NCBI GenBank assembly: GCA_025655595.1
Contig: JAHXIO010000019.1
Coordinates: forward strand, 62,001-126,000
Source of the DNA: Candidatus Thiodiazotropha sp. (ex Monitilora ramsayi)
Lineage (GTDB): Bacteria > Pseudomonadota > Gammaproteobacteria > Chromatiales > Chromatiaceae
DNA length: 64,000 bases
Direction: 5' to 3'
Under the pieces are notes generated by a model. The model had not been told where the DNA came from and did no database searches. It saw only the letters and a program-made list of their open reading frames with translations. Shown here piece by piece: positions 40,312 through 62,843 of the stretch. The position numbers and the translations under genes were made by a program. The first letter of the stretch is position 1; the number at the start of each line of letters is the position of its first letter.

Positions 40312-41009
40312 GAGACTGGATGCCCCCGTCCCTGAAAATTCTGTAGCAGGGCGTTAAGTGTGAACGCTAGTACAAGAAGAACAATACCCAATGCAATCCC
40401 CTGAGAGAATTCACCTTTGCTGGTTTCCAGTGCAATAGCGGTGGGAATGTTGCGGGTATAGTGGAGGATGTTGCCTCCCAGCATCATTGAAGCTCCAACT
40501 TCTGCGATGATACGGCCGAATGCAGCGAGTAAGGCGGCCATCAATCCGAATCTTGCCTCACGTATGACAGTGGAGAATGCGCGTAAGGGTCCAGCACCCA
40601 GAGTGCGTGCGGTTTCCCACGCACGCCTGTCCACTCCCTGTAGCGCGGCATGCCCCATGGCAGCCAGAATCGGGAATGAGAGGGCGATTTGACCCAATAC
40701 CATGGCTGTCTGGGTGAAGAGCAGTTTCCATTCACCCAGAGGGCCCTGGCGGGATAAGAGTATATAGAGGGTCAATCCCACTACGACGGCAGGAACGGAC
40801 AGGAGGGTGCTATTGATGGAGATAAGGAGTCGTCTTCCGGGAAAGTGAAGGTAGGTTAAGGCAAAGGCAGTCATCAGCGCCGGCGGAACCGCGACCGTAA
40901 TGGCGATAAATGAGACGCGAAAGGAGATACCGATAATCTCCCACAGCTCCGCGTTGCCACTGAACAGCAGTGCCAAAGCGTTGACTGTCGATTCGCTGAG
41001 TGACTCCAT
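40308..41009 (-). CDS. tupB: Tungstate ABC transporter permease
   Basis: A 233-residue permease with five to six membrane segments. The EAA-like loop is WETARTLGAGPLRAFSTVIREA, shortened here to its core ARTLGAGPLRAF; SIMLGGNI-like SMMLGGNILHYTRNIPTAI and LETSKGEFSQGIALGIVLL are typical of TupB/WtpB-type tungstate permeases. Its start abuts the tupA stop. Works with TupA and TupC. Confidence 0.92.
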   Translation of the reverse strand: MESLSESTVNALALLFSGNAELWEIIGISFRVSFIAITVAVPPALMTAFALTYLHFPGRRLLISINSTLLSVPAVVVGLTLYILLSRQGPLGEWKLLFTQTAMVLGQIALSFPILAAMGHAALQGVDRRAWETARTLGAGPLRAFSTVIREARFGLMAALLAAFGRIIAEVGASMMLGGNILHYTRNIPTAIALETSKGEFSQGIALGIVLLVLAFTLNALLQNFQGRGHPVS

Positions 41010-41866
41010 CAGTATGCTTTACTAAATGCGGCAAATTCACCAGCGTCGGCGGACGGTGTGAAGAGCTGATCCTTGCCGATGCGGAATTCACCGATCATTG
41101 TTTGGCCGTCAGGTGAAATGAACCACTTGATGAGGGCCATGGCACCGTCATGGTTCGTATCAGGATGGCGTACTGGATTGACGGCGATAATCCCGTAAGG
41201 ATTATAGAGTAAAGGGTCAGATTCAAATCTGATTTCCAATGGTGATTTGTTGTGATATGCCAACCAGGTACCGCGGTCTGTCAGAGTGTAAGCATCCAGC
41301 TCAGCAGCGATCTGCAATACTTTTCCCATACCCTGGCCCGCTTCACGGTACCAAGTTTTGCTTGGCCTCGTTTCGGATTTATTCCAAAGATATTGTTCCT
41401 TCTTATGGGTACCTGAGTCATCCCCGCGTGAGACAAACAATGACTGAGTCTGGGCGATGAGATCGAGGGCCTGAGTCACGGCTTTGGCGCTTCGAATGCC
41501 GGCGGGGTCGTCCTTGGGTCCGACGATGATAAAATCGTTGTACATGACACCGTACCGTTTCTCACCATAGCCTTCGGCGACAAATTTATCTTCAGTTGCA
41601 CGGGCATGGACTAATACGACATCTACATCTCCATCCCGCCCCATGCGAAGCGCCTTACCGGTCCCCACGGCAATGACATGGACTTCGTAACCGGAGGCTT
41701 CGGTAAATTTCGGTAAAAGGGCTGCGAGCAGTCCTGAGTTGTCTGTGCTGGTGGTGGTGGCTAATCTGATAATGTTTTTGGGGTATTCTTCTGCATGCAC
41801 ACCACTGATCGCTATAAATGAAACCGACAGAATCAGTGATATCAGACAAAAACGCTTGATTTTCAT
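41009..41866 (-). CDS. tupA: Tungstate-binding protein TupA
   Basis: A 285-residue periplasmic binding protein. Signal peptide ends near SGVHA-EEY; the mature part has RLATTTSTDNSGLLAALLP, with the T-T-T-S motif that binds tungstate in TupA, then VGTGKALRMGRDGDVDVVLVHA and MYNDFIIVGPKDDPAGI, all TupA hallmarks that distinguish it from ModA. It captures tungstate with high affinity for TupBC. The ATG at 41866 has GGAAG 6 bp upstream, and a near-perfect sigma-54 promoter lies about 45 bp upstream. Confidence 0.95.
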   Translation of the reverse strand: MKIKRFCLISLILSVSFIAISGVHAEEYPKNIIRLATTTSTDNSGLLAALLPKFTEASGYEVHVIAVGTGKALRMGRDGDVDVVLVHARATEDKFVAEGYGEKRYGVMYNDFIIVGPKDDPAGIRSAKAVTQALDLIAQTQSLFVSRGDDSGTHKKEQYLWNKSETRPSKTWYREAGQGMGKVLQIAAELDAYTLTDRGTWLAYHNKSPLEIRFESDPLLYNPYGIIAVNPVRHPDTNHDGAMALIKWFISPDGQTMIGEFRIGKDQLFTPSADAGEFAAFSKAY

Positions 41867-41909
41867 TTATGCTTCCATACTTGCCGTTGGGTGATTCCAG
41901 CTATTGATC

Positions 41910-41925
41910 TGCAAAAGCAGTGCCA
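41910..41925 (-). promoter_or_regulatory. Sigma-54 promoter of the tup-mob-moe operon
   Basis: On the minus strand TGGCACT-GCTT-TTGCA matches the -24/-12 consensus TGGCACG-N4-TTGCA at all but one position, with the obligatory GG-N10-GC. Expected start of transcription is near 41899, giving a leader of about 33 bases before tupA. The candidate activator binding region lies 135-210 bp upstream. Confidence 0.85.
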
Positions 41926-42058: not shown

Positions 42059-42120
42059 TGTCCCGAAATTGGGTCATATGTTCCAAGAACATTGACGATG
42101 AAAGGGACAAAATGACCCAA
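42059..42120. promoter_or_regulatory. Candidate enhancer/operator region: nested palindromes
   Basis: Three symmetric elements within 62 bp. TGTCCC-N6-GGGTCA (42059-42076); the perfect palindrome ATGTTC-CAA-GAACAT (42078-42092); and GGGACA-N3-TGACCC (42104-42118). In addition TTGGGTCAT (42069-42077) and ATGACCCAA (42112-42120) form a perfect 9-bp inverted pair. A further ACCCA-AG-TGGGT lies at 42133-42144. They sit between tupA and the NtrC-type gene, at enhancer distance from the tupA sigma-54 promoter. A similar GGGACA-N3-TGCCC site occurs before the fdh operon (52325-52338). Binding protein inferred, not shown. Confidence 0.55.
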
Positions 42121-42191: not shown

Positions 42192-43601
42192 ATGGGAAAT
42201 AGCGCACATGACCTGAAGAGAAAACGTGATGGAAGAACGATTCTCAGACCCAGTGAACAACCGATAAGAATGGCATCGGTATTGGTGGTCGATGATGAAC
42301 CGGGTATACGTAATTTTCTACAGCGGGGTTTGGCAAAATATTTCGGATTAGTCGAAGCTGCAGAAAATGTTGCCGCAGCGGAAGACCTTAGGCAACGCTG
42401 CCATTTTGACCTGATCATCACCGATATCCGTCTGCCAGGAGAGATTGGTGGAGTGGAATGGGTCAAGGAATTACGCAATCAAGGCGGTAATACCGGTGTG
42501 ATCTTCATGACGGCACATGCGGATCTTGAGACTGCAATTGCCGCACTCAGGGCTGGTGCGGAAGATTTCATCATGAAACCTTTCCGTATGGAGCAGATGA
42601 TGGCGGCCGTCGAGCGTTATCTGGCACGCCAGAAGATCCAGAGAGAGAACTTTGTACTGCGAAGGCAGGTGAATCAGCTCTACGACAGTGCCGGTGTAAT
42701 TGGTAATTGCGACCTGATGCGGGACCTTTGCGAAGTCATCAAGCGTGTTGCACCCATGCCTTCAACAGTGCTATTGGAGGGTGAATCCGGCACCGGTAAG
42801 GAACTGGCGGCACGGGCCATACATGAATTGAGCGGCAGGGCAGGAAGTTTTGTCCCCGTCAATTGTGGTGCGGTATCGGCTGAGCTGCTGGAGAGTGAAC
42901 TGTTTGGTCATGTCAAAGGCGCTTTTACGGGTGCGCACCAAGCCCGGGAAGGCCTGTTTACCTATGCAGAAGAGGGCACACTTTTTCTCGATGAGATTGG
43001 TGAAATGCCCCTCCCTATGCAGGCGCATCTCTTGCGTGCTTTGGAGGAGAGATCTATCAGACCGGTGGGGTCAAATCGTGAGATACCGGTAAACGTCCGA
43101 ATTATTGCTGCAACCAACAAGAATCTTGTGGATGAGATTAGAGATGGTGAATTCCGTGAAGATCTCTATTACCGGCTTAATGTGATTTCTCTGCACATAC
43201 CGGCTCTACGTGAAAGACCTGAAGATATTCCACTGCTCGCCAACCACTTTATTCAGCAATTATCAGTTGAATTGGGTGTTGAGGCCAGACAACTGGGTGA
43301 GGGGGAGCTCTCTCAACTTTTTAGCTATAACTGGCCAGGTAATGTAAGGGAACTTAAGAATGTTATCGAGCGTTGTCTGCTATTGAACAAGCCACCCAGC
43401 AGTTGTGTCATCGGTCTCGCATCGAATGACAAGGATCATGGGACAGACGAGAGTGATAATTTACAACTCGACAGTGTTGAAAAGCGCCATATCCTGAGAG
43501 TCTTGAATATGGAAGGAGGGAACAAGTCGGCAGCAGCGCGCATCCTCGGAATCTCTCGGAAGACCTTGGAGCGTAAGGCGCAGGCTTGGGGGTTGGACTA
43601 G
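42192..43601 (+). CDS. Sigma-54-dependent response regulator, NtrC family
   Basis: A 469-residue enhancer-binding protein. Receiver domain (about 28-140) with DDEP and phospho-Asp near residue 78 (LIITDIRLPG); AAA+ domain with Walker A LEGESGTGKELAARAI, the sigma-54 contact loop VKGAFTGAH, Walker B TLFLDEIGEMP and arginine-finger region REDLYYRLNV; C-terminal Fis-type helix-turn-helix GGNKSAAARILGISRKTLER. The start could be ATG 42192 or GTG 42180. It pairs with the kinase gene that follows and is divergent from tupA. It is the only sigma-54 activator in the window and so the best candidate to drive the four sigma-54 promoters found here. Confidence 0.93.
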   Translation: MGNSAHDLKRKRDGRTILRPSEQPIRMASVLVVDDEPGIRNFLQRGLAKYFGLVEAAENVAAAEDLRQRCHFDLIITDIRLPGEIGGVEWVKELRNQGGNTGVIFMTAHADLETAIAALRAGAEDFIMKPFRMEQMMAAVERYLARQKIQRENFVLRRQVNQLYDSAGVIGNCDLMRDLCEVIKRVAPMPSTVLLEGESGTGKELAARAIHELSGRAGSFVPVNCGAVSAELLESELFGHVKGAFTGAHQAREGLFTYAEEGTLFLDEIGEMPLPMQAHLLRALEERSIRPVGSNREIPVNVRIIAATNKNLVDEIRDGEFREDLYYRLNVISLHIPALRERPEDIPLLANHFIQQLSVELGVEARQLGEGELSQLFSYNWPGNVRELKNVIERCLLLNKPPSSCVIGLASNDKDHGTDESDNLQLDSVEKRHILRVLNMEGGNKSAAARILGISRKTLERKAQAWGLD

Positions 43602-43631: not shown

Positions 43632-45749
43632 ATGGAGACGCCACGTAAAAGCTTCAGAGAAATGATCAGGACATCCCTGCGCTATAAGCTGTTAGTGCTG
43701 GTTTTGTTTCCAATCCTTCTCATCATGCCGATCTTTCTATTGTTCGCGGTATTCTGGGGATCAAACTTCAGCTACGAACAGTTATTGATAAAAGTCAATA
43801 CCGATTTGGCAGTGGCGGATGACCATTTTATAAGAATTCGTGAAGACTATCTAAACAGCCTTTCCAACTTGGCGGAGTCTCATGGTTTTTATACTGCGCT
43901 GGAGTCGAAGAGTGACAGTGCAATCGCAACGCAATTACAGGCACACCAATTAAATGCAGGGTTTTCCTATCTTTATCTGTTGGACAGAAATGGCAATCGC
44001 TATTTTGATCCTGCAATACATGGTCATACCTCACCCTCTCTATTGGCTGCAATGCAGGGGACGCCACGTGTCGGTATAGAGATCCTTTCGGCAGATGAGC
44101 TGGAAGCCGTATCGCCAGGCCTGGCCAAACGAGTCAAGTTATCCCTTATCGATACGCGTCGCGCGAGACCGACAGAGCGTAAAATCGAAGAGCGGGGAAT
44201 GATGATCCGTGCAATATACCCAGTAAGTGATTCGAGAGGTGAGGTTATTGCACTACTTGACGGCGGTGTTTTATTAAATGGCAATTTTGATTTTGTGGAT
44301 ACCATTCGTGATCTGGTTTATGGTCCCGGCAGCCTGCCCGTGGGTAGCTTGGGGACTGTAACGGTATTTCTGGATGATGTGCGCATAACAACTAATGTTC
44401 CCCGGCGCCCTAAGGAGAGGGCTCTGGGTACACGTGTGTCCGATGAAGTCCGTACTCAGGTTTTGGATCATGGTGAAAAGTGGATAGATCGTGCTTTTGT
44501 TGTCAACGATTGGTATATCTCATCTTATCAGCCCATATTAGATGTCAACGGTGATCGCGTAGGTATGCTATATGCGGGATTTCTCGAAGCTCCGTTTCGG
44601 AATGAACTCTGGCAGGCGTTGATCATTCTGATTCTTTTCTTTCTTGGTTTGATGCTTATATCCGGGTTGCTTTCCGTTTGGGGTGCAAAGTCCATATTTA
44701 AACCGCTAGAGATGATGAGTGAAGTCGTACACGCGACCCGTCAGGGTATCTCGAAGAGAATTGGAGAGGTTGATTCACAAGACGAGATCGGCGTGTTGGC
44801 CCGAGAACTCGACGTGTTGTTAGAGTTGTTGCGAAAACGTAATCAAGAGATACAGGAATGGGCGGATCAACTGGAGGACAAGGTAGATGAACGCACGGGT
44901 GAGCTGAAACGTAAGAACGAAAAGCTTGTCAGCACCATACAGGTGTTACGGGAAACACGGGCCCAGCTGATCGCCGCAGAGAAATTGGCGGCATTGGGTG
45001 AGCTGACTGCCGGTGTTGCACACGAGATTAATAATCCCACGGCTGTAATAATCGGTAATCTCGATCTTTTGGTAGATGATCTCGGTGAGCAGGCCGAACC
45101 GGTACGCAACGAAATTGATTTGATCATAGAACAGGTGTTCCGCATTAAGGAGATCATCCACAATCTGCTTGATTACGCAAAACAGGAACAGGTAAGCGAC
45201 ACACCTTCACTTATAGATGTGAACGAAGTCGTACAAAATACGCAAGCGCTTGTACGCCATCTTCAAAAAAATAACAAGTTTGAGCTTAGGATTTTTTTAC
45301 ATGCATCACAACCTGTTTCAATCAATCCCAGCGAGTTACAGCAGGTACTGGTCAATCTTGTGGTGAATGCTGTTCACGCACTTAACGATGATGACGGTCA
45401 GATTGAGATAGAGACAAAGAACTGGCTAAATAAGGGTGTGGTTATTTGTGTGCGTGATAACGGTATCGGTATGGATGAGCAGACTGCCGGTCAAATATTC
45501 AATCCATTCTTTTCCCAGATGCGAAATGGAAGAGGGACCGGTCTTGGACTCTCTATCAGCTACGGATTGGTAAGGAAGTATGGTGGCGGGATTACAGTGG
45601 AGACCAAGCCCGGTGAGGGTGCTGAATTCTCAGTATGGTTGCTACATCAGCCGCCGCGCGAAAAGAACAATCTGGAGTCAGGGGTTGTCAATGAGTTTAA
45701 TGAAGGAGATGTCTTAAGTGGATCGTTTGTAAAGACAGGGCAGGGTTGA
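43632..45749 (+). CDS. Sensor histidine kinase with periplasmic Cache-like domain
   Basis: A 705-residue membrane kinase. Transmembrane segments at about 19-44 and 327-352 enclose a large periplasmic region that reads like a double Cache sensor (YLYLLDRNGNRYFDP, IYPVSDSRGEVIALLDGG, YISSYQPILDVNGDRVGMLY). Then HAMP (about 353-405), a coiled coil, the H box TAGVAHEINNPTAVIIGNL, N box LVNLVVNAVHAL and G boxes RDNGIGMD and GRGTGLGLSISYGLV. Partner of the NtrC-type regulator 30 bp upstream. Cache domains bind small ligands outside the cell; formate, another carboxylate or an oxyanion would fit the regulon, but that is speculation. Confidence 0.92.
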   Translation: METPRKSFREMIRTSLRYKLLVLVLFPILLIMPIFLLFAVFWGSNFSYEQLLIKVNTDLAVADDHFIRIREDYLNSLSNLAESHGFYTALESKSDSAIATQLQAHQLNAGFSYLYLLDRNGNRYFDPAIHGHTSPSLLAAMQGTPRVGIEILSADELEAVSPGLAKRVKLSLIDTRRARPTERKIEERGMMIRAIYPVSDSRGEVIALLDGGVLLNGNFDFVDTIRDLVYGPGSLPVGSLGTVTVFLDDVRITTNVPRRPKERALGTRVSDEVRTQVLDHGEKWIDRAFVVNDWYISSYQPILDVNGDRVGMLYAGFLEAPFRNELWQALIILILFFLGLMLISGLLSVWGAKSIFKPLEMMSEVVHATRQGISKRIGEVDSQDEIGVLARELDVLLELLRKRNQEIQEWADQLEDKVDERTGELKRKNEKLVSTIQVLRETRAQLIAAEKLAALGELTAGVAHEINNPTAVIIGNLDLLVDDLGEQAEPVRNEIDLIIEQVFRIKEIIHNLLDYAKQEQVSDTPSLIDVNEVVQNTQALVRHLQKNNKFELRIFLHASQPVSINPSELQQVLVNLVVNAVHALNDDDGQIEIETKNWLNKGVVICVRDNGIGMDEQTAGQIFNPFFSQMRNGRGTGLGLSISYGLVRKYGGGITVETKPGEGAEFSVWLLHQPPREKNNLESGVVNEFNEGDVLSGSFVKTGQG

Positions 45750-49281: not shown

Positions 49282-50196
49282 CTATTCATCTCCCCAAATT
49301 AAATCACCCGCCTCAGCGAGATCATATCCAGTCAGACTCTCTGCCATGGCTTGAGAATCAGGTGAGCGCAATCTTGCAATCAGATCCTGAAAAAGTCGTC
49401 TGAACCAGATACTTCTCTGTAGTGCAAGGTCAAATGACTCCCAGCCGAAAGAGATGAAGCCTAGTCCGTACTCAGTTGCAGCTGCCCTAGCACCCGGTGC
49501 AACATCGGCTTGTCCCATGGCTATGCTTGCTGCGGCTTCCCTTTCCGACAAAGCCGTGGCGATACAGTTCAACCGGTCTGCACTGGTTTCATAACGGCTG
49601 AGTACTTCTAACAGAAATCGTTGTGCCCCGGCTCCGCTCTGTCTCAATGCCCAGCGATACTTATGATCGATCATCGCTTCTGGATCCAGACCTTCGGCCT
49701 CCAGTGCCGGGGATATCATCAAACCCTGTTCACGGCGGAACATGCGTATCAGCACCCAATGGCGGAATTGGTTGTACTGTTTCAAAAGTGCGGGATGACG
49801 GGTATGGCTCTCTTCGTTAGGCCCCCAGTGGATGCCACTGGCATCTACACGATTCGCCTGCAGCAGATCCAGACCGAGCCGAGTTCCGGTGGGTGTATAA
49901 CTGACCAGTGCATGGGCGCCTGTGTCCTGGGCAAAATTCATAATCAGGCGATAGAGTAAGGGGTCGTCGCTACCCGCGATAATCAGACGGTTGGTCATCA
50001 GACCACCATGAGCGGAGTCAAGCATCCAGCGATCCACCAGTTCTCTGGGAAAGAGCCACTTGCCGGTGATCTTGGTGGCGGGAATACGTTCTTCATTGAC
50101 CAGAGAATAGATCTTCTTTTCGTTCAAGTGCAGATATTCCGCTACTTGTTTGACATTCATAAAGACCTGCTGCTGTTGTGACATGACTGCTGACAT
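49282..50196 (-). CDS. Excisionase-type HTH regulator with PBP-like domain
   Basis: A 304-residue protein. Residues about 12-60 are an excisionase/MerR-like helix-turn-helix (MNVKQVAEYLHLNEKKIYSL, then IPATKITGKWLFPRELVDRW). The rest is a periplasmic-binding-protein-like fold (NRLIIAGSDDPLLYRLI, YTPTGTRLGLDLLQANRVD, GQADVAPGARAAATEYGLGF), as in ModE-like one-component regulators with a PBP domain. The ATG at 50196 follows GGAGGG. Third gene of the moaA-fdhD operon; likely senses molybdate, tungstate or a cofactor intermediate (inference). Confidence 0.85.
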   Translation of the reverse strand: MSAVMSQQQQVFMNVKQVAEYLHLNEKKIYSLVNEERIPATKITGKWLFPRELVDRWMLDSAHGGLMTNRLIIAGSDDPLLYRLIMNFAQDTGAHALVSYTPTGTRLGLDLLQANRVDASGIHWGPNEESHTRHPALLKQYNQFRHWVLIRMFRREQGLMISPALEAEGLDPEAMIDHKYRWALRQSGAGAQRFLLEVLSRYETSADRLNCIATALSEREAAASIAMGQADVAPGARAAATEYGLGFISFGWESFDLALQRSIWFRRLFQDLIARLRSPDSQAMAESLTGYDLAEAGDLIWGDE

Positions 50197-50212
50197 TTTG
50201 TCTTCCCTCCAC

Positions 50213-52216: not shown

Positions 52217-52324
52217 AACTGCGACGTTAGGGTAATTCTCTTGGTCTCATCGCAATCCTCACTTCTGTATGTGTTTTGAAGATGGCTCAGGTGGTGTGAT
52301 TTGTACCAATGATGCACCGGCATC

Positions 52325-52338
52325 GGGACATTTTGCCC
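52325..52338. promoter_or_regulatory. Candidate activator site between moaA and fdh operon
   Basis: GGGACA-TTT-TGCCC resembles GGGACA-AAA-TGACCC found upstream of the NtrC-type gene (42104-42118). It lies about 110 bp from the moaA -24 element and about 80 bp from the fdh -24 element, the usual distance for a sigma-54 enhancer, and could serve both. Only two or three instances are known to me, so the motif is tentative. Confidence 0.45.
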
Positions 52339-52418
52339 TCACTTACTCACACTCCGTTTTTCGGATTATTTTCCCTCTGCTGACTATATAAAGGGCCTGA
52401 GGGCCGTCTGTTATGAGT

Positions 52419-52434
52419 TGGTACGCAACTTGCG
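52419..52434 (+). promoter_or_regulatory. Sigma-54 promoter of the fdh operon
   Basis: TGGTACG-CAAC-TTGCG matches the sigma-54 consensus at all core positions (GG-N10-GC, ACG, TTGC). Expected start near 52444, leaving a 32-base leader with the strong Shine-Dalgarno GAGGAGGG before the first gene. Confidence 0.85.
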
Positions 52435-53548: not shown

Positions 53549-55158
53549 CCCCGCAACAGAGCATCAACCTGAAAGCCAAAACGGCAGCATTGGCCGCCAT
53601 GCAGCGCCTGCCGATTGAACCCACCAGCCTGGTGAACTATCGATCGAAAGGGCGTGTGGTGATAATCGGTGACAACCAGGCCCTGGAGATTGCGCCAAGA
53701 CTCAATGAACGGCTCCACGCCATGGTGATCTTGACCCAGGGTGTCGAAGAACCCGGTGTGCCGCTGATTCCGCTGGGAGGGAGGGCTATCCATATAGAAG
53801 GTTATCTCGGCGACTTCAGGATCCTGCTGGCAGGCGGCGGCGAACACAATACAGAGACGATAGCTGCAGACCTGATTTTGGATCTGAGCCCAACACCGCT
53901 GATCAATGCCCAGATGAAACCGCCGGGCTATGTCTATTCCGAGATGGAAGAGGTCGCGCTGCAGGCGGCGGTCGAGGAGTTGGAGGAGCTGACCGGCAGC
54001 TTCGAGAAACCGCGCTATTTCGACTACAACCCCGATATCTGCGCCCACGGACATGCGGGCAAGACGGCCTGCAACCGTTGCATCGAGGCCTGCCCCGCGG
54101 ATGCCATCAAAAGTTTGGCGGAGACGATCGAGGTCAATGCCCATCTCTGCCAGGGTGGCGGCGTATGTGCGACAGTCTGTCCCAGTGGGGCCATCCGCTA
54201 TGCCTATCCGAATCCCAAGGACAATCTGGATCGGATGCGCAGGCTGTTGTCGGTCTATCGGGAGGAGGGCGGCTTTGACCCGGTGGTTGTCTTTATCGCC
54301 GAGTCCGATGACTTTGTTACAGATTCACTGCCGACCAATTATCTGCCGTTTCTCGTCGAGGAACTCGCCAGTGTGGGCTTGGAGTTCTGGCTCTCGACGC
54401 TCGCTTTCGGCGCCCACTCAGTGTTGCTCCTGAACGGAGGTGGCGTGCCGGAACGTTCAGTAAAAGCCCTGGAAGAGCAGTTGCGTACAGTCGACGAAAT
54501 CATCACCGCCATGGGTTATGCGGCCGGTCTGGTCAGCCTGATCGCCCCAGAGGATCTGGATACAGAGCAGATAGTATCGATGCCGGCTATCAAGCCTGCA
54601 GGCTTCTCAGGTTTGGGAGGCAAACGCCAGACCGCCTATCTCGCCATTGATCATCTGTTTACAGAGGCGGAAAAGCCCAAACCCATGGTCAGCCTCACTG
54701 TAGGTGCTCCGTTCGGGAAGGCCGATGTGGACGCAAATGCCTGCACGCTCTGTTTTTCCTGCGTCGGCGCTTGTCCCGGCAAGGCACTGCAGACCGGCGG
54801 TGAAGGTGTACCCCAGTTGCTCTTTATCGAGGATAACTGTCTGCAGTGCGGTATGTGTACCCGGACCTGTCCGGAGGACGCTATCTGGATTACGCCGCGC
54901 CTGCTGTTCGATGCCGATCAGCGTAGACAGAAACGCAAACTGCATGAGGAGGCGCCATTCCTGTGCACCTCCTGCGGGAAGCCTTTCGCCACCCGTTCGG
55001 TGATCGACAACATGCTCAATAAGCTGCAGGGCCACTACATGTTTCAGAATGAACGGGCCCGCAAACGCCTGACCATGTGCGAAGACTGCCGTGTCATCGA
55101 CATCGTGCAGGATCAAGAGGCCATGAATGGCGGTATCGATGGCCGGTTTCGGCAATAA
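53545..55158 (+). CDS. Multi-[4Fe-4S] ferredoxin-like protein of fdh cluster
   Basis: A 537-residue cytoplasmic iron-sulfur protein. First cluster pair at about residues 170-220: CNRCIEACPADAIK and CQGGGVCATVCPSGAIRY. A middle region (FDPVVVFIAESDD ... AFGAHSVLLLNGGGVP) resembles MvhD/HdrA-associated modules. Second pair at about 395-450: CTLCFSCVGACPGKAL and CLQCGMCTRTCPEDAI. A C-terminal CTSCGKPFATR and CEDC may bind zinc or another cluster. Typical partner of DUF3305/DUF3306 in fdh operons; it may pass electrons between FDH and soluble acceptors or deliver clusters. Overlaps the previous gene by 4 bp. Confidence 0.9.
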   Translation: MTPQQSINLKAKTAALAAMQRLPIEPTSLVNYRSKGRVVIIGDNQALEIAPRLNERLHAMVILTQGVEEPGVPLIPLGGRAIHIEGYLGDFRILLAGGGEHNTETIAADLILDLSPTPLINAQMKPPGYVYSEMEEVALQAAVEELEELTGSFEKPRYFDYNPDICAHGHAGKTACNRCIEACPADAIKSLAETIEVNAHLCQGGGVCATVCPSGAIRYAYPNPKDNLDRMRRLLSVYREEGGFDPVVVFIAESDDFVTDSLPTNYLPFLVEELASVGLEFWLSTLAFGAHSVLLLNGGGVPERSVKALEEQLRTVDEIITAMGYAAGLVSLIAPEDLDTEQIVSMPAIKPAGFSGLGGKRQTAYLAIDHLFTEAEKPKPMVSLTVGAPFGKADVDANACTLCFSCVGACPGKALQTGGEGVPQLLFIEDNCLQCGMCTRTCPEDAIWITPRLLFDADQRRQKRKLHEEAPFLCTSCGKPFATRSVIDNMLNKLQGHYMFQNERARKRLTMCEDCRVIDIVQDQEAMNGGIDGRFRQ

Positions 55159-55214: not shown

Positions 55215-55230
55215 TGGCCCGCAGCTTGCC
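55215..55230 (+). promoter_or_regulatory. Internal sigma-54-like promoter before torD-like gene
   Basis: TGGCCCG-CAGC-TTGCC has the GG-N10-GC core and differs from TGGCACG-N4-TTGCA at two positions. It lies in the only sizeable gap (95 bp) in the first half of the fdh operon, 24 bp before the torD-like start with its AGAGGAG site. A half-site TGTCCC lies just upstream (55192-55197). Confidence 0.65.
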
Positions 55231-55253: not shown

Positions 55254-55916
55254 ATGACGAATCATAGCCGGTCTGCCCGGGCAGACGAGCGAACTGAAGA
55301 TCTAGCCCGAGCCGTCACACCGCTTTCGGCAGCGGCAATGAAGAGTGAAGAGCAGATCTATCGCAGCGGTGCCTACAGCATGCTGGCCAGGTTGCTCAGA
55401 TCGCCACCTGACAGACAGGTGATGCAACAGGTGGCCGGATTCGCCAAAGTGGAATCGAAGCAGGATGAGATGACACTGGCCATGTCGATGCTGGGACTGG
55501 CCGCTTCCACCTCCAGTCCGGAAACGGTGGATGATGAGTTTCATGCGCTGTTCATCGGAATCGGTCGCGGAGAGCTGGTGCCTTACGGCTCCTGGTATCT
55601 CACAGGTTATCTCATGGAGAGGCCCCTGGGTCGGTTGCGCGATGATCTCGCAGCACTCGGATTCCAACGCCAGGATGGCGTGAAGGAGCCGGAGGACCAT
55701 GTGGCCGCGCTCTGTGAGGTGATGGCCGTGTTGATAGACGAGGGCAGTCCTGCACAGATGCAATCGCACTTCTTCGAGAGGCATCTCGCCGATTGGATGG
55801 AGCATTTCTTCACCGATCTCAGCGAGTCCGGATCGGCAGTCTTCTACAAGGCCGTGGGGCGCTTCGGCGCCGCATTCGCCGGACTGGAGAAGCGCTATCT
55901 GCGTATGCCGGTGTAA
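55254..55916 (+). CDS. TorD/DmsD-family chaperone for formate dehydrogenase
   Basis: A 220-residue all-helical protein of the TorD/NarJ-like family of cofactor-insertion chaperones. Features: IYRSGAYSMLARLLRSPPD, ETVDDEFHALFIGIGRGELV, PYGSWYLTGYLMERPLGRLR and, near the C-terminus, FFERHLADWMEHFF (E-x-x-H-L-x-x-W). It would bind the Tat signal of FdhA until bis-MGD and clusters are in place. AGAGGAG upstream. Followed by a small Tat-signal protein and fdhA. Confidence 0.9.
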   Translation: MTNHSRSARADERTEDLARAVTPLSAAAMKSEEQIYRSGAYSMLARLLRSPPDRQVMQQVAGFAKVESKQDEMTLAMSMLGLAASTSSPETVDDEFHALFIGIGRGELVPYGSWYLTGYLMERPLGRLRDDLAALGFQRQDGVKEPEDHVAALCEVMAVLIDEGSPAQMQSHFFERHLADWMEHFFTDLSESGSAVFYKAVGRFGAAFAGLEKRYLRMPV

Positions 55917-56182: not shown

Positions 56183-59080
56183 ATGAAACTGCGTAAGACC
56201 TCCGATCTCGCGATCGACCAAAGAGCTGAGTCCGAAATTTCTTGCAAGAGTGACAGCGGCGGTCAGACCATGACCCGACGCGACTTTCTGCGAAACTCCG
56301 GTCTGATGGCCGGTGGCGCCGTTTTGGCGACCAACTTCGCACCAGGTATGGTCAAACGGGCCAGTGCCGAAGAGATGGGTGCGGGCTCCGTCAGTAAGGT
56401 GAAGACCATCTGTACCCACTGTTCAGTGGGATGCGGCATCATTGCCGAGGTGCAGAATGGCGTCTGGATCGGCCAGGAACCGGCCTTTGATCATCCGTTC
56501 AGTCACGGTGCGCACTGTGCCAAGGGTGCCTCGGTAAGAGAGCACGGCCATGGTGAAAGGCGTCTGAAATATCCCACCAAGTTGGTCGGCGGCAAGTGGA
56601 AACGGATCTCCTGGGAACAGGCGATCAACGAAATCGGCGATCAGATGCTGCAGATCCGCGAACAATCGGGTCCCGACTCGGTCTACTGGCTGGGGTCCGC
56701 CAAACACAACAACGAGCAGGCCTACCTGTTCCGTAAGTTTGCCGCGTTCTGGGGCACCAACAATGTGGATCACCAGGCGCGAATTTGTCACTCCACCACC
56801 GTAGCCGGTGTGGCCAACACCTGGGGCTATGGTGCGATGACCAATTCCTATAACGATATCCATAACTCAAAGGCGATATTGATCATTGGCGGTAACCCCG
56901 CGGAAGCGCATCCAGTCTCTCTGCAGCATGTCTTCAAGGCAAAAGAGGAGAACAATGCCCCCCTGATCGTGATCGATCCGCGCTTTACCCGAACTGCTGC
57001 CCATGCCAACCAATTCCTGCGTCTGAGACCGGGAACCGATATCCCGGTGGTTTGGGGCATGCTTTGGCATATCTTTAAGAACGGCTGGGAGGACAAGGAG
57101 TTTATCCGTCAACGTGTCTACGGTATGGAGGATGTAAAGAAGGAGGTCGCCAAGTGGACGCCTGATGAGGTTGAGCGGGTCTCAGGTGTGCCTGAACATC
57201 AGGTTTATGCCGCAGCCAAGACCATGGCTGACAATCGGCCCGGTACCTTCATCTGGTGTATGGGCGGAACACAACACACCATCGGCAATAACAACACCCG
57301 AGCCTACTGTGCATTCCAATTGGCACTGGGCAATATGGGTACCGCTGGTGGCGGCACCAATATCTTTCGTGGCCATGACAATGTACAGGGTGCCACCGAC
57401 TTCGGTGTCCTTTCCCACACATTGCCTGGCTATTACGGTCTTTCTGCAGGTGCATGGAAACACTGGGCGAAGGTCTGGGATGTGGACTATGAGTGGCTGG
57501 CCGCTCGTTTCGACGAGGGCAGCTATGAGAAGTCCAAGGGCAAGGATATGCCGATCATGAATACCAAGGGTATTCCGGTCTCCCGTTGGATCGATGGCGT
57601 GTTGGAAGAGAAAGGCAACATTGCGCAGAAAGACAATATCCGTGCCATGGTGCTCTGGGGACATGCCCCCAACAGTCAGACCCGTGGTAAGGAGATGAAG
57701 CTGGCGATGGAGAAGCTGGATACCTTGATCATCGTCGATCCCTATCCGACCGTTTCCGCCGTCATGCACGACAGAACCGACGGTGTCTATCTATTGCCTG
57801 CCTGTACACAGTTTGAGACCTATGGTTCGGTGACTGCCTCCAACCGCTCTTTGCAGTGGCGCGACAAGGTGATTGAACCCATGTTCGAGTCTATGACGGA
57901 TCAGACCATCATGTACCGGCTTGCGAAGAAACTGGGTTTCGCCGATGAACTGTTCAAGCACATCAAGATAGAGAATGATGAGCCGCTGATCGAAGACATC
58001 ACCCTTGAATACAACAAAGGTATGTGGACGATCGGTTACACCGGCCAGAGCCCGGATCGCATGAAGAAGCAACAGAGGAACTGGGGCACCTTCGACTACA
58101 CCAGCCTGTTGGCCGAGGGTGGACCCTGCCATGGCGAATACTACGGACTGCCATGGCCCTGCTGGGGCACGGCGGAGATGGGACATCCGGGTACGCCGAA
58201 TCTCTACGACACCAGTAAGCCGGTATCCAGAGGCGGTCTCAACTTCCGCGCCCGTTTCGGTGTGGAACGTAACGGTGTGAATTTGTTGGCTGAAGGATCC
58301 TATCCGGTGGGCAACGAACTCAAGAGCGGACATCCGGAATTTACCGATAAACTGCTGAAGAAACTCGGTTGGTGGGATGATCTCACCGAAGACGAGAAGC
58401 AGTTGGCAGAAGGTAAAAACTGGAAGACCGACCGTTCCGGAGGCATACAGAGGGTTGCTATCAAACACGGTTGTGCACCATTCGGTAACGCCAAGGCAAG
58501 GGTCGTTGTCTGGACCTTCCCCGACCCGGTACCGATTCACCGCGAGCCGCTCTATACCAGTCGGCGGGATCTGGTGGAGAAGTACCCCACCTACGAAGAT
58601 CGCAAGTCCTACTATCGTCTGCCGGTACGCTACGGCTCGATACAGGCGAAGGATTACTCTCAGGACTATCCTATCATCCTCACCTCGGGACGACTCGTGG
58701 AGTATGAGGGCGGCGGCGATGAAACACGGTCCAACGCATGGCTGGCGGAATTGCAGCAGGATATGTTCGTCGAGATGAATCCGCGCGATGCCAATGATGT
58801 TGGTGTCAGGGACGGCGACGATGTCTGGCTGGAAGGTGCAGAAGGCGCCCGTCTCAAGATAAAGGCGCAGGTCACCAGAAGAGTAGCGCCGGGTGTGGCA
58901 TTCATGCCGTTCCATTTTGGCGGTCACTTCGAGGGCCGGGATCTGCGCAGCAAGTATCCGGAAGGTGCCGACCCATACGTCTTGGGTGAGGCCTGTAACA
59001 CGGCGATGACCTACGGTTACGACTCGGTGACACAGATGCAGGAAACCAAGTGCAGCTTGTGCCGGATCAGCAAGGCTTAA
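56183..59080 (+). CDS. fdhA: Formate dehydrogenase catalytic (alpha) subunit, periplasmic
   Basis: A 965-residue bis-MGD oxidoreductase oxidising formate to CO2. Tat signal TRRDFLRNSG near residue 31 after a 30-residue leader that is normal in this FDH group. [4Fe-4S] cysteines CTHCSVGCG plus HCAKGAS. The metal ligand is Cys in RICHSTTVAG, where E. coli FdnG has selenocysteine, followed by the catalytic His. Other cofactor regions: ILIIGGNPAEAHPV, GGTQHTIGNNNTRA and, at the C-terminus, FHFGGHFEGRDLRSKYPEG. Start ATG 56183 is 5 bp after AGGGTGA. With tungstate uptake co-regulated, the enzyme may carry tungsten. Confidence 0.96.
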   Translation: MKLRKTSDLAIDQRAESEISCKSDSGGQTMTRRDFLRNSGLMAGGAVLATNFAPGMVKRASAEEMGAGSVSKVKTICTHCSVGCGIIAEVQNGVWIGQEPAFDHPFSHGAHCAKGASVREHGHGERRLKYPTKLVGGKWKRISWEQAINEIGDQMLQIREQSGPDSVYWLGSAKHNNEQAYLFRKFAAFWGTNNVDHQARICHSTTVAGVANTWGYGAMTNSYNDIHNSKAILIIGGNPAEAHPVSLQHVFKAKEENNAPLIVIDPRFTRTAAHANQFLRLRPGTDIPVVWGMLWHIFKNGWEDKEFIRQRVYGMEDVKKEVAKWTPDEVERVSGVPEHQVYAAAKTMADNRPGTFIWCMGGTQHTIGNNNTRAYCAFQLALGNMGTAGGGTNIFRGHDNVQGATDFGVLSHTLPGYYGLSAGAWKHWAKVWDVDYEWLAARFDEGSYEKSKGKDMPIMNTKGIPVSRWIDGVLEEKGNIAQKDNIRAMVLWGHAPNSQTRGKEMKLAMEKLDTLIIVDPYPTVSAVMHDRTDGVYLLPACTQFETYGSVTASNRSLQWRDKVIEPMFESMTDQTIMYRLAKKLGFADELFKHIKIENDEPLIEDITLEYNKGMWTIGYTGQSPDRMKKQQRNWGTFDYTSLLAEGGPCHGEYYGLPWPCWGTAEMGHPGTPNLYDTSKPVSRGGLNFRARFGVERNGVNLLAEGSYPVGNELKSGHPEFTDKLLKKLGWWDDLTEDEKQLAEGKNWKTDRSGGIQRVAIKHGCAPFGNAKARVVVWTFPDPVPIHREPLYTSRRDLVEKYPTYEDRKSYYRLPVRYGSIQAKDYSQDYPIILTSGRLVEYEGGGDETRSNAWLAELQQDMFVEMNPRDANDVGVRDGDDVWLEGAEGARLKIKAQVTRRVAPGVAFMPFHFGGHFEGRDLRSKYPEGADPYVLGEACNTAMTYGYDSVTQMQETKCSLCRISKA

Positions 59081-59095: not shown

Positions 59096-59725
59096 ATGGC
59101 ACGTATGAAATTCTATTGTGACCCCGAACGTTGTATCGAATGCAACGCCTGTGTGACAGCCTGCAAGAACGAGAACGAGGTCCCGTGGGGCGTCAATCGC
59201 CGCCGGGTGGTGACCATCAAGGATGGCGATCCTGGAGAGCGGTCACTTTCTGTCGCATGTATGCACTGCTCTGATGCGCCTTGTGCAACGGTGTGTCCGG
59301 TCGATTGTTTCTATACCACACAGGATGGTGTGGTACTGCACGACAAGGATATCTGCATTGGATGTGGCTATTGCTTCTATGCTTGCCCGTTCGGTGCACC
59401 ACAGTTTCCGGAAGATGGCGCCTTCGCCACCCGCGGCAAGATGGACAAGTGTACCTTCTGCGCAGGTGGGCCAGAAGCGGATCACAGTGCGGACGAGCAC
59501 CGGAAGTATGGTTCAAACCGATTGGCGGAAGGCAAATTGCCGCTTTGTGCCGAGATGTGTTCGACCAAAGCGTTGCTCGCAGGTGATGCGGATGTCATTT
59601 CCGATGTCTACCGGAAGCGCATCATCAATCGTGGTGCCGCAGTTTTGGCCCGTGGTGTCTCTTTTCAAGATGCATCTTTCCGTGCACCCAGTAATTTAGG
59701 CGGCAAGAGCAGCTCACAGGAGTAA
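59096..59725 (+). CDS. fdhB: Formate dehydrogenase iron-sulfur (beta) subunit
   Basis: A 209-residue ferredoxin-type subunit with four cluster motifs: CIECNACVTACKNE, CMHCSDAPCATVCPVDC, CIGCGYCFYACPFGAPQ and CTFC ... CAEMCSTKAL. It carries electrons from FdhA to the cytochrome b subunit. It has no signal peptide and should ride out with FdhA by Tat. It is shorter than E. coli FdnH and lacks its C-terminal membrane helix, like the FDH3 group. Fifteen bases after fdhA. Confidence 0.95.
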   Translation: MARMKFYCDPERCIECNACVTACKNENEVPWGVNRRRVVTIKDGDPGERSLSVACMHCSDAPCATVCPVDCFYTTQDGVVLHDKDICIGCGYCFYACPFGAPQFPEDGAFATRGKMDKCTFCAGGPEADHSADEHRKYGSNRLAEGKLPLCAEMCSTKALLAGDADVISDVYRKRIINRGAAVLARGVSFQDASFRAPSNLGGKSSSQE

Positions 59726-59742
59726 TGTAAATAATAATGGAT

Positions 59743-59774
59743 CTGTCCCGGCGCGGATCGAAACGCCGGGACAG
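59743..59774 (+). repeat. Perfect hairpin between fdhB and fdhC
   Basis: CTGTCCCGGCG (59743-59753) and CGCCGGGACAG (59764-59774) form a perfect 11-bp GC-rich stem with a 10-base loop. No T-run follows, so it is more likely an mRNA processing or stabilising hairpin setting the ratio of soluble to membrane subunits. Its outer bases TGTCCC/GGGACA match the half-site of the candidate activator motif. Confidence 0.7.
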
Positions 59775-59832
59775 TCTGAATGACTGAGAATACTGGTCAT
59801 CAACAGACGAGCGGAAGCGGGGAGTGGATCCG

Positions 59833-60927
59833 ATGAGAACGCCGGCACACCATAAGACCGTGCCTCATGCGCTGGGTGTTTTTGGCATTTATTTACTAGG
59901 TTTGTGCCTTCTGCTTTTCAGTACGCTGGTAGACGCACAGGAAAAGCAACCCAAGGAACTGCCAACTGTCCAGATGATGAATCCTGCAGCTGAGTTCTGG
60001 CGTGATGTCAGACAACGCTCGGCGCCGGTAAGTGGAAAGACTCAGGTCGGCGGAGTCGAGACAGGTGTGCTGATCAACGCTACCGGTGATCGATGGCGCC
60101 AATTCAGAATGAGTCAGCTGATACCGATCAGCGGTTATATCCTCGGCGGTATGGTGATTCTCCTGGTGGCTTTCTATGCCATTCGGGGACGTGTACCCAT
60201 TGAGGGTGGTATGTCGGAACATAAGTTGCCGAGATATACCGGGTACGAGCGCATGATCCACTGGTTCATGGCATCGATATTTATCTTTCTCGCCGTCACT
60301 GGTCTGATTCTGCTGTTTGGACGTCCACTGCTGATTCCCGTTCTTGGGAAGGAGGGTTTCTCCATTCTCGCCTCGGCCAGTAAGGAGGGACACAATCTGA
60401 TGGGGCCGCTCTTTCTGCTGGCGCTGGTTATGATTATCATCCAATTCGTCCGGCGTAATATCTACCAGAAAGGAGACCTGAGCTGGCTGATCAGGGGGGG
60501 CGGTATCATTGGCAAAAAGCATGTGCCCTCAAACTTCTTCAACATGGGCGAAAAGACAATGTTCTGGCTGCTGGTCTTCGTCGGCGGTCTGATCGGCGTT
60601 TCGGGACTCATCCTGGTCTTTCCTGTACTGGGGCTGGGAAGGGAGATTATGGCGCTGGCGCATGTGGGTCATGCGATAGGTGCCATTCTGATGATCACGG
60701 TTATCATCGGTCACATCTATATCGGTACTGTCGGTATGGAAGGGGCCATTGAAGGGATGAAGACCGGTTACTGCGATCTCAATTGGGCCAAGGAGCACCA
60801 CGATCTCTGGGCAAGTAAAGCAGAAGAGAACGGCGAAGCTTTATCCAATCAAGAGGTAGCGAAAATGAGAGGCGATCGTGGCTCTGTACCGCCTGTGCAC
60901 TCCGGCCTACAGGAGTCAGGTAAGTGA
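59833..60927 (+). CDS. fdhC: Formate dehydrogenase cytochrome b (gamma) subunit
   Basis: A 364-residue membrane subunit. An N-terminal signal or anchor (LGVFGIYLLGLCLLLF) precedes a short periplasmic part, then four core helices (about 98-118, 142-165, 190-208 and 244-265, with more after). Haem-ligand histidines are expected in YERMIHWFMASIF, the helix of SKEGHNLMGPL and LAHVGHAIGAIL / IIGHIYIGTVG. It passes electrons to quinone. The ATG at 59833 follows GGGGAG; GTG 59824 is possible. Overlaps the NarI-like gene by 4 bp. Confidence 0.93.
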   Translation: MRTPAHHKTVPHALGVFGIYLLGLCLLLFSTLVDAQEKQPKELPTVQMMNPAAEFWRDVRQRSAPVSGKTQVGGVETGVLINATGDRWRQFRMSQLIPISGYILGGMVILLVAFYAIRGRVPIEGGMSEHKLPRYTGYERMIHWFMASIFIFLAVTGLILLFGRPLLIPVLGKEGFSILASASKEGHNLMGPLFLLALVMIIIQFVRRNIYQKGDLSWLIRGGGIIGKKHVPSNFFNMGEKTMFWLLVFVGGLIGVSGLILVFPVLGLGREIMALAHVGHAIGAILMITVIIGHIYIGTVGMEGAIEGMKTGYCDLNWAKEHHDLWASKAEENGEALSNQEVAKMRGDRGSVPPVHSGLQESGK

Positions 60928-61565
60928 TCGGTGAATTTATCGATGGACCGCTATGGTATTTCTCGATCACCGCATTCGTGATCGGCGTTGTCTGGCGTAT
61001 CGTTGCTATCGTCAGAGCAGGATTGAAGCCGGATCTCTCCATTGCCAGGGGCAGTGCGGGGAGTGGGGCGGTAAGAGCGATCTTCAGCCGATTCGTGCCA
61101 GAGCGCACAGTGACCACAAGAAGCCGGCTTCAATTGATTGCCGGCTATATGTTTCACGTCGGTCTTTTGGTTCTGCTTTTTTTCGCTCAGCCCCATGTCG
61201 ATTTTATCGCTGAACGGATCACGGGGTTTGACTGGCCGGCAGTCCCTCATTGGGTGTTCATCGTTACCGCTGAGTTTGCCTTTGCGGGACTGATTCTGTT
61301 GTGGCTGCACCGGGTGCTCAATCCGGTAACGAGGCTGCTGTCGGATCTGGATGACCATATCGGCAGTATCTTGGTCTTTCTTGTTATGCTGACAGGCTGT
61401 CTGGCTCTGGCACAGTCCCACGAATCACTACGCCTGCTCCACCTCTTTCTTGCGGAAGTGTTTTTAATCTACTTCCCCTTCAGCAAACTGATGCATGCCT
61501 TTACCTTTGTCATGAGCCGTGGCTATACAGGGGCGACCATGGGCAGGAAAGGCGTCAATGCATAA
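60924..61565 (+). CDS. NarI/DsrM-like cytochrome b membrane protein
   Basis: A 213-residue five-helix membrane protein. Helices at about 10-30, 70-88, 108-128, 142-162 and 170-190. Histidines in YMFHVGLLVLLFF, LLWLHRVLNP and SHESLRLLHLFLAEVF fit the NarI-type di-haem b fold, and KLMHAFTFVMSRGYTG is a typical NarI/DsrM ending. Start GTG 60924 overlaps the fdhC stop (GTGA). Together with the next gene it makes a DsrMK/HdrED-like membrane pair that is not part of standard FDH-N or FDH-O. Confidence 0.88.
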   Translation: MIGEFIDGPLWYFSITAFVIGVVWRIVAIVRAGLKPDLSIARGSAGSGAVRAIFSRFVPERTVTTRSRLQLIAGYMFHVGLLVLLFFAQPHVDFIAERITGFDWPAVPHWVFIVTAEFAFAGLILLWLHRVLNPVTRLLSDLDDHIGSILVFLVMLTGCLALAQSHESLRLLHLFLAEVFLIYFPFSKLMHAFTFVMSRGYTGATMGRKGVNA

Positions 61566-61577
61566 GGAGAAGCGGAG

Positions 61578-62843
61578 ATGAGTGAACAGTTCGAACAGGG
61601 AGTCGCGGCACTGCGAAATCAGATCGATGCGAGAATCTCATCCTACCTTTCCAGTTGTGTCCATTGCGGTATCTGTGCCGAAGCCTGTCTCTTCTATACG
61701 GAGACCCAGGATCCTCGCTATACGCCAATCCACAAGATCGAACCGCTGAAAAAATTGTGGAAAACGGAAAATACCTTCTGGGGGAAAATGGCTAAGTCTA
61801 TGGGCCTGATCGAGCCGTTGACCGAGTCCGACTTTGCGCAATGGGAAGAATTGATCTATGACAGCTGCACCCTTTGCGGCCGCTGCTCCATGGTCTGTCC
61901 GGTGGGGAACGATATCACCTACATGATTCGTAAGATCCGGGAAGGGTTTTCCGTAGCAGGATATGCGCCGGATGGCATGAAGGAGGCGACGAAACGCGCG
62001 CTGAACATCGGCAGCCCGATGGGGGTTACGCTCAAGACCCTGAAGGCTGCATTGGCGCACGTGGAGAGGGACACCGGATTATCGATACCCATTGATAAGG
62101 CGAATGCGGACTACATGACGCTCTTTTCCTCCATGGAGATCGTCAATTTTCCGGAATACATCGAGAGTATCGCGAAGATCTTTGATACAGCCGGCGTGTC
62201 ATGGACCATCAGCAGCAAGGCGTTCGAGGCCACCAACAGCGGTATACAGATAGGCAATCGTGATGCGGCAGCGGAACTGGTGGGGCGGGTAGTGAATGCG
62301 GCCGAGACGTTGGGTGTCAAGTATGTGGTCAGTCCTGAATGTGGACATGCGTATACGGCGATTCGTTGGGAGGGTCCCAATCTGATCGGTCGTGCATATG
62401 ATTTCGAAGTGATACATATCCTCGAGCTTCTGGACAAGCTGAAAGTCGAAGGCAGGATTAAACTGTCTGGCAAAGACGATACGCCGATGACATTGCATGA
62501 CCCCTGTCAGATCGTCAGACGAGGCGGGGTGGTTGATCCGCCGCGAAATCTGCTTAACAGTGTTGCCGACCACTTTACCGAGATGCAGGATCACGGTGTG
62601 ATGAACTGGTGTTGTGGTGGCGGTGGTGGCGTCAGCGCCAACGAAAGGGCTGAACCCTTGCGGCTTAAGGCCTTTGATCGCAAAAAACATCAGCTGGAAG
62701 AGTTGGGTGTCAACACCATGGTGACGGCTTGTGCCAACTGTCGAATTATCCTCGAAGAGGGTCTGGAGCATAACGAAATGGATACTGAGGTAGTGAGTCT
62801 TACAGAACTGTTGGCAGAGCATCTCCAGTCAGGAAACACTTAA
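61578..62843 (+). CDS. HdrD/DsrK/GlpC-like (Fe-S)-binding protein
   Basis: A 421-residue protein with an N-terminal double ferredoxin, CVHCGICAEACLFY and CTLCGRCSMVCPVGN, followed by a catalytic-type half. The second cysteine-rich CCG domain is intact: HDPCQIVRRGG, WCCGGGGGVSANE and ACANCRIIL. The first CCG domain is reduced to ECGHAYTAIR, as in DsrK/TmcB-like proteins. Such subunits bind an unusual [4Fe-4S] cluster and exchange electrons with thiols or a partner protein. With the NarI-like gene it forms a membrane redox pair in the fdh operon. Cytoplasmic side expected. Last gene of the operon. Confidence 0.92.
   Translation: MSEQFEQGVAALRNQIDARISSYLSSCVHCGICAEACLFYTETQDPRYTPIHKIEPLKKLWKTENTFWGKMAKSMGLIEPLTESDFAQWEELIYDSCTLCGRCSMVCPVGNDITYMIRKIREGFSVAGYAPDGMKEATKRALNIGSPMGVTLKTLKAALAHVERDTGLSIPIDKANADYMTLFSSMEIVNFPEYIESIAKIFDTAGVSWTISSKAFEATNSGIQIGNRDAAAELVGRVVNAAETLGVKYVVSPECGHAYTAIRWEGPNLIGRAYDFEVIHILELLDKLKVEGRIKLSGKDDTPMTLHDPCQIVRRGGVVDPPRNLLNSVADHFTEMQDHGVMNWCCGGGGGVSANERAEPLRLKAFDRKKHQLEELGVNTMVTACANCRIILEEGLEHNEMDTEVVSLTELLAEHLQSGNT

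Follow-up and report, generated by a model that had tools for sequence, protein, structure and literature searches.

A putative sigma-54 regulon joining tungstate uptake, cofactor synthesis and formate dehydrogenase genes in Candidatus Thiodiazotropha

The DNA analysed here, referred to as the window, is a stretch of 64,000 nucleotides from a Candidatus Thiodiazotropha genome of 4.68 Mb (G000; compared genomes are numbered G and loci L). The same-genus relatives include Candidatus Thiodiazotropha that are symbionts of lucinid clams. The window carries a minus-strand run of genes, tupA-tupB-tupC-mobA-mobB-moeA, with an NtrC-type activator and a histidine kinase divergent from tupA. It also carries a formate dehydrogenase (fdh) region, where the genes for an HTH/PBP-like protein, fdhD and moaA on the minus strand are divergent from DUF3305-DUF3306-4Fe-4S-torD-like-fdhA-fdhB-fdhC-TmcC-like-DsrK-like on the plus strand. 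We read these genes as a dedicated sigma-54 regulon in which a kinase/activator pair that reads formate would drive tup, moaA-fdhD and fdh via paired palindromes, and we put the probability of this reading, which comes from sequence comparison, at about 0.72. Common control of tup, moaA-fdhD and fdh by a single kinase/activator pair is well supported because the promoters share a tandem operator, the genes co-occur, the promoter (and, where scored, the operator) is absent where the activator is lacking, and the kinase and the receiver domain of the activator appear to have evolved together.

In the mechanism proposed, periplasmic formate would bind the Cache_3-type module of the kinase at R251, T254 and T267, as homology and an invariant triad suggest. 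The kinase would then phosphorylate the activator, for which their adjacency and the co-evolution of the receiver argue. Activator dimers are predicted to bind a pair of 17-bp palindromes separated by about three turns of DNA, at sites defined by conservation, and AAA+ hexamers would remodel sigma-54 RNA polymerase at the tupA, moaA and fdh promoters, also defined by conservation. The cell would in this way co-produce the formate dehydrogenase with tungstate uptake, cofactor synthesis (moaA, moeA, mobA and mobB) and sulfur transfer (fdhD). The features are listed in Table 1.

Table 1. Features of the putative regulon, with positions in the window
Feature	Position	Strand	Sequence or remark
Sigma-54 promoter, tup operon	41910..41925	-	TGGCACTGCTTTTGCA
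Sigma-54 promoter, moaA-fdhD-HTH/PBP genes	52201..52216	-	GGGTACGGTAATTGCG
Sigma-54 promoter, fdh operon	52419..52434	+	TGGTACGCAACTTGCG
Conserved -24/-12 site before torD-like gene	55215..55230	+	TGGCCCGCAGCTTGCC; no palindrome pair
Putative enhancer palindrome 1, tupA/activator intergenic	42070..42086	.	
Putative enhancer palindrome 2, tupA/activator intergenic	42103..42119	.	Core is the genome's single exact GGGWCAWWWTGNCCC
Putative enhancer palindrome common to moaA and fdh promoters	52292..52308	.	One half degenerate in this genome
Putative enhancer palindrome common to moaA and fdh promoters	52324..52340	.	
NtrC-type enhancer-binding response regulator	42192..43601	+	Pfam Response_reg, Sigma54_activat, HTH_8
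Membrane histidine kinase, periplasmic double-Cache sensor (sCache_3_3)	43632..45749	+	Pfam, fold and profile matches
Codons of R251/T254/T267 triad	44382..44432	+	Spacing as PacF R142/T145/T158
tupA, tungstate-type binding protein	41009..41866	-	Best family TupA, under equivalog cut-off
tupB permease	40308..41009	-	Best family TupB, under equivalog cut-off
tupC ATPase	39592..40311	-	ABC_tran match; no tungstate-specific family match
mobA 38999-39595, mobB 38457-39002, moeA 37192-38460	37192..39595	-	Overlapping genes 3' of tupC
HTH_17 + PBP_like regulator-like protein	49282..50226	-	Recurrent neighbour
fdhD sulfurtransferase	50213..51118	-	Pfam FdhD-NarQ; under NCBIfam equivalog cut-offs
moaA (GTP 3',8-cyclase)	51111..52172	-	In-frame ATG at 52172 or 52133
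DUF3305 52476-52997, DUF3306 52898-53548	52476..53548	+	
4Fe-4S protein, fdh operon	53545..55158	+	
TorD/NarJ-type chaperone (torD-like)	55254..55916	+	
fdhA, formate dehydrogenase catalytic subunit, Tat-type N-terminus	56183..59080	+	Start and signal read by eye
fdhB, fdhC (cytochrome b), TmcC-like, DsrK-like electron-transfer genes	59096..62843	+	

An earlier reading of the window, made from the sequence only, had placed sigma-54 sites (GG-N10-GC) of good quality before tupA, moaA, the fdh operon and the torD-like gene. All four were found at those positions, and they score 18.0, 10.3, 13.5 and 12.3 bits, respectively, with a -24/-12 matrix built on approximate weights, which do not come from a published table. 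Only at tupA is the consensus (TGGCAC-N5-TTGCW) matched perfectly, and this pattern occurs 6 times in the genome versus 2 for a reversed control pattern. At least 10 bits is reached at 18 positions in the window (both strands), and sites with up to 2 mismatches to the consensus number 34 against 35 expected from shuffles, which is no excess. The case therefore rests on position and conservation. Conservation in relatives, the check proposed with the earlier reading, was upheld: the site is kept at tupA in 21/21 same-genus genomes with enough upstream DNA, at fdh in 27/27 relatives and at torD in 22/22 loci with a gap of at least 90 bp before the gene. The tupA site scores at least 12.5 bits in 21 of 22 same-genus genomes, G000 included, the 22nd (G014) being cut by a contig end. 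In this comparison, in which 30 of 34 TupA matches had loci, the site was also found in G022, G027 and G043, and was missing in G024, G029, G036, G042 and G045. The fdh site scores at least 11.1 bits in all 27 loci of relatives. Most relatives have the divergent moaA/fdhD site, which is weak or absent in G007, G012, G021 (where a contig end is near), G024, G043 and G048. G000 has an rpoN gene. Elsewhere in it, three perfect sigma-54 consensus sites lie inside 19 kb (G000:C4:171597-189956).

Reading of the upstream regions revealed a 17-bp palindrome, TGGGWCA-WWW-TGWCCCA, repeated upstream of the tup and fdh promoters. Most of the genus has a tandem pair some 32 bp apart, which lies near -92 and -125 relative to the fdh -24 element and near -163 and -197 relative to that of tup. 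In G000, the 52292/52324 pair is midway between the divergent promoters, at -92/-124 of moaA and -95/-127 of fdh. As a cross-check, matrices were made from the tup set alone or the fdh set alone, with G000 left out. Both converged on TGGGACA-AAT-TGTCCCA, and the fdh-only matrix ranks the tup palindrome at 42103 first in the window. Outside Thiodiazotropha, 70 palindromes are phased at an 11-bp period (R 0.61; eight periods tried), and the spacing is 30-33 bp in 20 of 23 pairs. Such helical phasing would be expected of an activator that has to face the polymerase. A genome-wide hunt for targets, using the best -24/-12 site per strand in each 3-kb locus, covered 15 places with a palindrome, and a site of at least 10 bits within 200 bp on the proper side is found at tup and moaA/fdh alone. 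When 44 TGGYAY-N5-TTGC places were used as the starting point, 14 of them, tup and fdh included, had no locus, and none of the best sites in the other 30 loci has an upstream palindrome above 10.6 bits.

The arrangement extends to many genera. A scan of named genomes with a DUF3305 alignment gave 106 confirmed stretches, of which 80 were kept. One culturable relative among them, Sedimenticola hydrogenitrophicus SB48 (L208), has a match to the kinase, the fdh promoter and two palindromes, and the stretch covered contains no match to the activator. A -24/-12 site of at least 10 bits is upstream of fdh in 64 of these 80 loci, where 2.9 are expected from letter shuffles, and a palindrome of at least 9 bits is found in 60 of the 64 loci with the promoter and 1 of the 16 without it (shuffle rate 1.8%); these counts are not independent because the loci are related and the thresholds were set by us. 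That the sites and repeats reflect chance or composition would fit the consensus-like counts in the window, which equal the shuffle expectation, and some palindrome-like matches are indeed chance; however, conservation of position and sequence over many genera, with helical phasing, refutes this explanation, to which we give next to no credence.

The activator co-occurs with the fdh operon. Among 56 relatives, activator orthologs (E up to 1e-130) are found in 28, namely all 27 with DUF3305 and G029, though that of G012 has in-frame stops and is at a contig end. In five relatives with a tupA locus but no activator nearby, the tupA promoter is absent. Of the 17 named loci that include tupA, promoter and palindrome are both present in all 14 with the activator nearby and in none of the 3 without it. 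A single compact cluster, moeA-mobB-mobA-tupCBA, activator-kinase, fdhD-moaA and fdh, is found in G095.

The -24/-12 sites could instead be served by a different sigma-54 activator, the one beside tupA being merely a neighbour. Proximity alone proves little, and G000 may hold many related regulators, as a search with the activator returned 97 candidate stretches, 29 of which were scored. This alternative also draws on a class sample of 369 genomes (four shared with the 56 relatives), 25 with the activator, 46 with DUF3305 and 23 with both. Among the 30 of the 46 DUF3305 loci that were scored, both promoter and palindrome are present in 12 of 16 activator-positive loci and also in 4 of 14 activator-negative ones. 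G145, counted as activator-negative and lacking both elements, has a more distant activator (41% identity) by its fdh genes. However, one of the four exceptions contains an activator below the cut-off (47% identity) beside tup and fdh; G241, another, is congeneric with the activator-bearing G118, and the remaining two are on short contigs. Given also the near-perfect co-occurrence of activator and fdh among the 56 relatives, the location of palindromes between tupA and the activator, and the lack of the promoter at the five activator-less tupA loci and of both elements at the three named ones, we consider a different activator improbable.

The NtrC-type activator with an intact GAFTGA loop that had been recognized divergent from tupA was borne out, as the protein has Response_reg, AAA+ and Fis-type HTH domains and its gene is followed by that of the kinase. 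The open reading frame is of 473 amino acids from the GTG at 42180, and the ATG at 42192 is the likelier start. The best NCBIfam matches include AtoC/AtoS and ZraR/ZraS, with scores far under the cut-offs of those families. The receiver residues D38, D39, D82, T111 and K133 are intact in the window. The kinase is present in 19 of 22 same-genus genomes, G000 included; in G018, kinase and activator are on different contigs and G017 has only a short kinase remnant. G012 (L185) and G017 (L091) are smaller-genome Thiodiazotropha in which the system may be decaying, or the stops in G012 could be an assembly error. Downstream of the kinase in the window, 216 bp past its end, there is a sigma-54-like site of 12.4 bits, TGGCTCCAATCTTGCT (45965-45980, plus strand), and the two closest relatives have similar sites, TGGCGTTAATCTTGCT and TGGCGCTAATCTTGCT, farther past the kinase (L191:4496 and L192:3111).

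The state of the receiver was surveyed in 70 activator loci (some genomes under two ids; one contig-edge locus set aside), allowing Asp/Glu and Thr/Ser exchanges. All five residues are intact in 50 of 50 loci with an adjacent kinase and in 4 of 19 without one, these four being the loci of G017, G048 and G338 and an additional, truncated copy in G318. Decayed receivers are seen in activators of the G031, G089 and G029 types. A quick tree of 68 rows implies 11 changes of kinase state and 8 of receiver state. The kinase is therefore read as the normal phosphate source, with its repeated loss followed by receiver decay. Tentatively, and at a little less than even odds, we suggest more broadly that a periplasmic formate-sensing kinase and its NtrC-type partner form a sigma-54 tungstoenzyme regulon across many Gammaproteobacteria, in which repeated loss of the kinase has led to phosphorylation-independent control with operators and targets kept. 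If so, this regulon would comprise formate dehydrogenase and, in places, aldehyde:ferredoxin oxidoreductase together with tungstate uptake, cofactor and sulfur-transfer genes, and the kinase/receiver pattern would let one trace, in a natural series, how response regulators come to act without phosphorylation.

The best matches to the kinase sensor are formate-bound chemoreceptor domains. The top two solved domains, 8py0 and 8py1, are formate complexes according to the entry titles, and Pfam and fold comparison support a Cache_3-type fold. The formate-site residues of PacF are R142, T145 and T158 in the passages on that receptor in PMC12501870. The corresponding R-x2-T-x12-T triad is invariant in 26 of 26 aligned kinase orthologs and has the same spacing in PacF, 8py0 and 8py1. 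Together, the domain matches and the invariant triad point to formate as the likely signal of the kinase. The regulon could be exactly as described with the kinase reading another periplasmic cue, such as a different small carboxylate, tungstate or molybdate, or redox state. In the kinase, the first sensor module is similar to those of DcuS and CitA, which are dicarboxylate/citrate sensors. In addition, the tungsten-supply genes of the regulon and the aldehyde:ferredoxin oxidoreductase genes of G029 and G241 (see below) may indicate that the common denominator is the metal cofactor and not formate. Set against the two formate complexes and the conserved triad, a different cue appears rather unlikely.

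Tungsten is the classical metal of aldehyde:ferredoxin oxidoreductases, and that of formate dehydrogenases is either tungsten or molybdenum, which suggests tungsten supply as the common theme. In G029 (L272), a relative of the activator (~50%) and moaA-fdhD-HTH/PBP are found beside ferredoxin-like and aldehyde:ferredoxin oxidoreductase genes, with one 20-bit palindrome between and weak promoters (~6 bits). In G241 (L343), an aldehyde:ferredoxin oxidoreductase operon is divergent from moaA-fdhD, with a -24/-12 site each way (11.4 and 11.6 bits) and, between these sites, a palindrome pair with 32-bp spacing; G241 itself showed no activator, which is present in its genus mate G118. TupB passes the cut-off of a broader permease subfamily, NF038017. 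A ModB above cut-off is found in every same-genus genome except G014 (G000:C3:605958-606584 here), and Tup is therefore probably not the sole importer. G014 (L093; 2.6 Mb, 93% complete) has kept tupABC-mobA-mobB-moeA, and fdh, activator, kinase and ModB were not found in it.

Several further results weigh against parts of the reading adopted here. With the tup-only matrix, the fdh palindrome at 52324 ranks only 18th in the window and that at 52292 ranks 330th, while the fdh-only matrix ranks the tup palindrome at 42070 24th. The tup and fdh palindromes are therefore related, not identical, and the link is stronger in one direction. An earlier matrix, whose training sites were picked with one made from both promoter sets, ranked the fdh palindromes 21st and 308th, and the palindrome core with up to 1 mismatch occurs 22 times genome-wide versus 20 for the reversed control, which is no excess. 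For the sensor, the triad makes up just 3 of 55 invariant columns, and it lies in the second module of the kinase whereas the formate site of PacF is in the membrane-distal module (passages of PMC12501870). Other Cache domains are within ~1 Z unit of 8py0 and tie with 8py1, and 8py0 is at rank 11 in Foldseek's own ordering. On well-supported branches of the tree there are 4 kinase/receiver pairs, with 2.8 agreeing on average and 0 opposing (P=0.25), too few for significance. TupA scores 239 of 400 bits and TupB 193 of 320, both under the equivalog cut-offs, and the use of tungsten, not molybdenum, by the formate dehydrogenase is something we infer.

The earlier reading had the kinase/activator at 42192-45749 controlling all four promoters. 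This stands for tup, moaA-fdhD and fdh. At torD the site is conserved without an operator: a palindrome pair of the tup/fdh type was looked for upstream and none was found. Control of the torD site by the tupA-side activator is therefore conjectural. The site probably serves the fdh operon as a secondary sigma-54 promoter, and it is kept in all 22 loci with a gap of at least 90 bp before torD; two further loci gave no torD match. We give about even chances that it answers to another activator or is relayed from upstream enhancers 2.9 kb away, as the conserved -24/-12 site without a palindrome pair would allow, although the lack of a comparable gap in G027, G043 and G048 indicates that a torD promoter is dispensable. 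A T-rich block (TTTGTCATTTCTTT-like), seen by eye just 5' of the -24/-12 site, is also conserved in these loci (e.g. L151, L148 and L156).

The nearest known parallel is FhlA of Escherichia coli, a sigma-54 activator whose N-terminus carries GAF domains that bind formate, where other activators have a receiver, and which links formate to formate dehydrogenase and maturation genes. Formate is bound by FhlA directly, in the cytoplasm and without a kinase, and the FhlA targets belong to formate hydrogenlyase. Here a membrane kinase would sense formate, and the targets include tungstate uptake and cofactor genes as well as a formate dehydrogenase that bears a Tat-type signal. Membership of the FhlA group was rejected because the N-terminus of the activator is Response_reg and no GAF match was listed. 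The AtoS/AtoC, ZraS/ZraR and DctB-type pairs have the same layout of kinase and receiver-AAA+-Fis activator, and the DctB sensor is among the fold matches; the operator and regulon differ here, and the kinase is repeatedly non-adjacent. The Cache_3-type fold is common to PacF, Atu0526, McpF, 8py0 and 8py1, and the Arg-Thr-Thr spacing to PacF, 8py0 and 8py1. However, PacF, Atu0526 and McpF are chemotaxis receptors in the passages of PMC12501870, while here the module is in a histidine kinase, behind a DcuS/CitA-like module.

Sigma-54 control of some formate dehydrogenases is already predicted, as in silico targets in COG3383 include them (passages of PMC12316311). Comparative sigma-54 regulons of Desulfovibrio cover formate metabolism via pyruvate formate-lyase, and the main text of PMC4641369 has no words starting tungst-, molybd-, fdh or tup. 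In Methylorubrum extorquens, moeA1-mobB-tupBCA ties tungstate transport to cofactor genes for a tungsten formate dehydrogenase, and the passages of PMC13197769 on this cluster do not describe sigma-54 control or a two-component system. No description of a tup/moaA/fdh sigma-54 regulon was found in the open-access literature, which is weak evidence as subscription papers are mostly outside it, and no formate-sensing histidine kinase was found in the part of the open literature covered. The new elements are the operator, together with how it is phased and how widely it occurs, the proposal that formate is the probable signal, a connection to another family of tungsten-dependent enzymes, and the loss of the kinase accompanied by receiver decay. 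If the reading is correct, formate gains a histidine-kinase sensor, and one switch with a predicted ligand would join the import of the metal, the assembly of the cofactor and the enzyme served by both. Lucinid-clam symbionts are reported to express formate and methanol oxidation genes (passages of PMC11171427 and PMC12172469), and the regulon would offer a testable account of when formate is used.

Two sets of genes in the fdh region merit mention. The HTH_17 + PBP_like protein (49282-50226, minus strand) is beside fdhD/moaA in many relatives, whether or not the kinase is present. It may act inside the cell as a Mo/W-responsive regulator of the fdhD/moaA genes; a search of its PBP-like part against solved structures gave no match. 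FdhA has, as read by eye, a cysteine at what we take to be the position of selenocysteine in some relatives. The last genes of the fdh operon (60924-62843, plus strand) are TmcC-like and DsrK/HdrD-like, which suggests an unusual electron route from formate.

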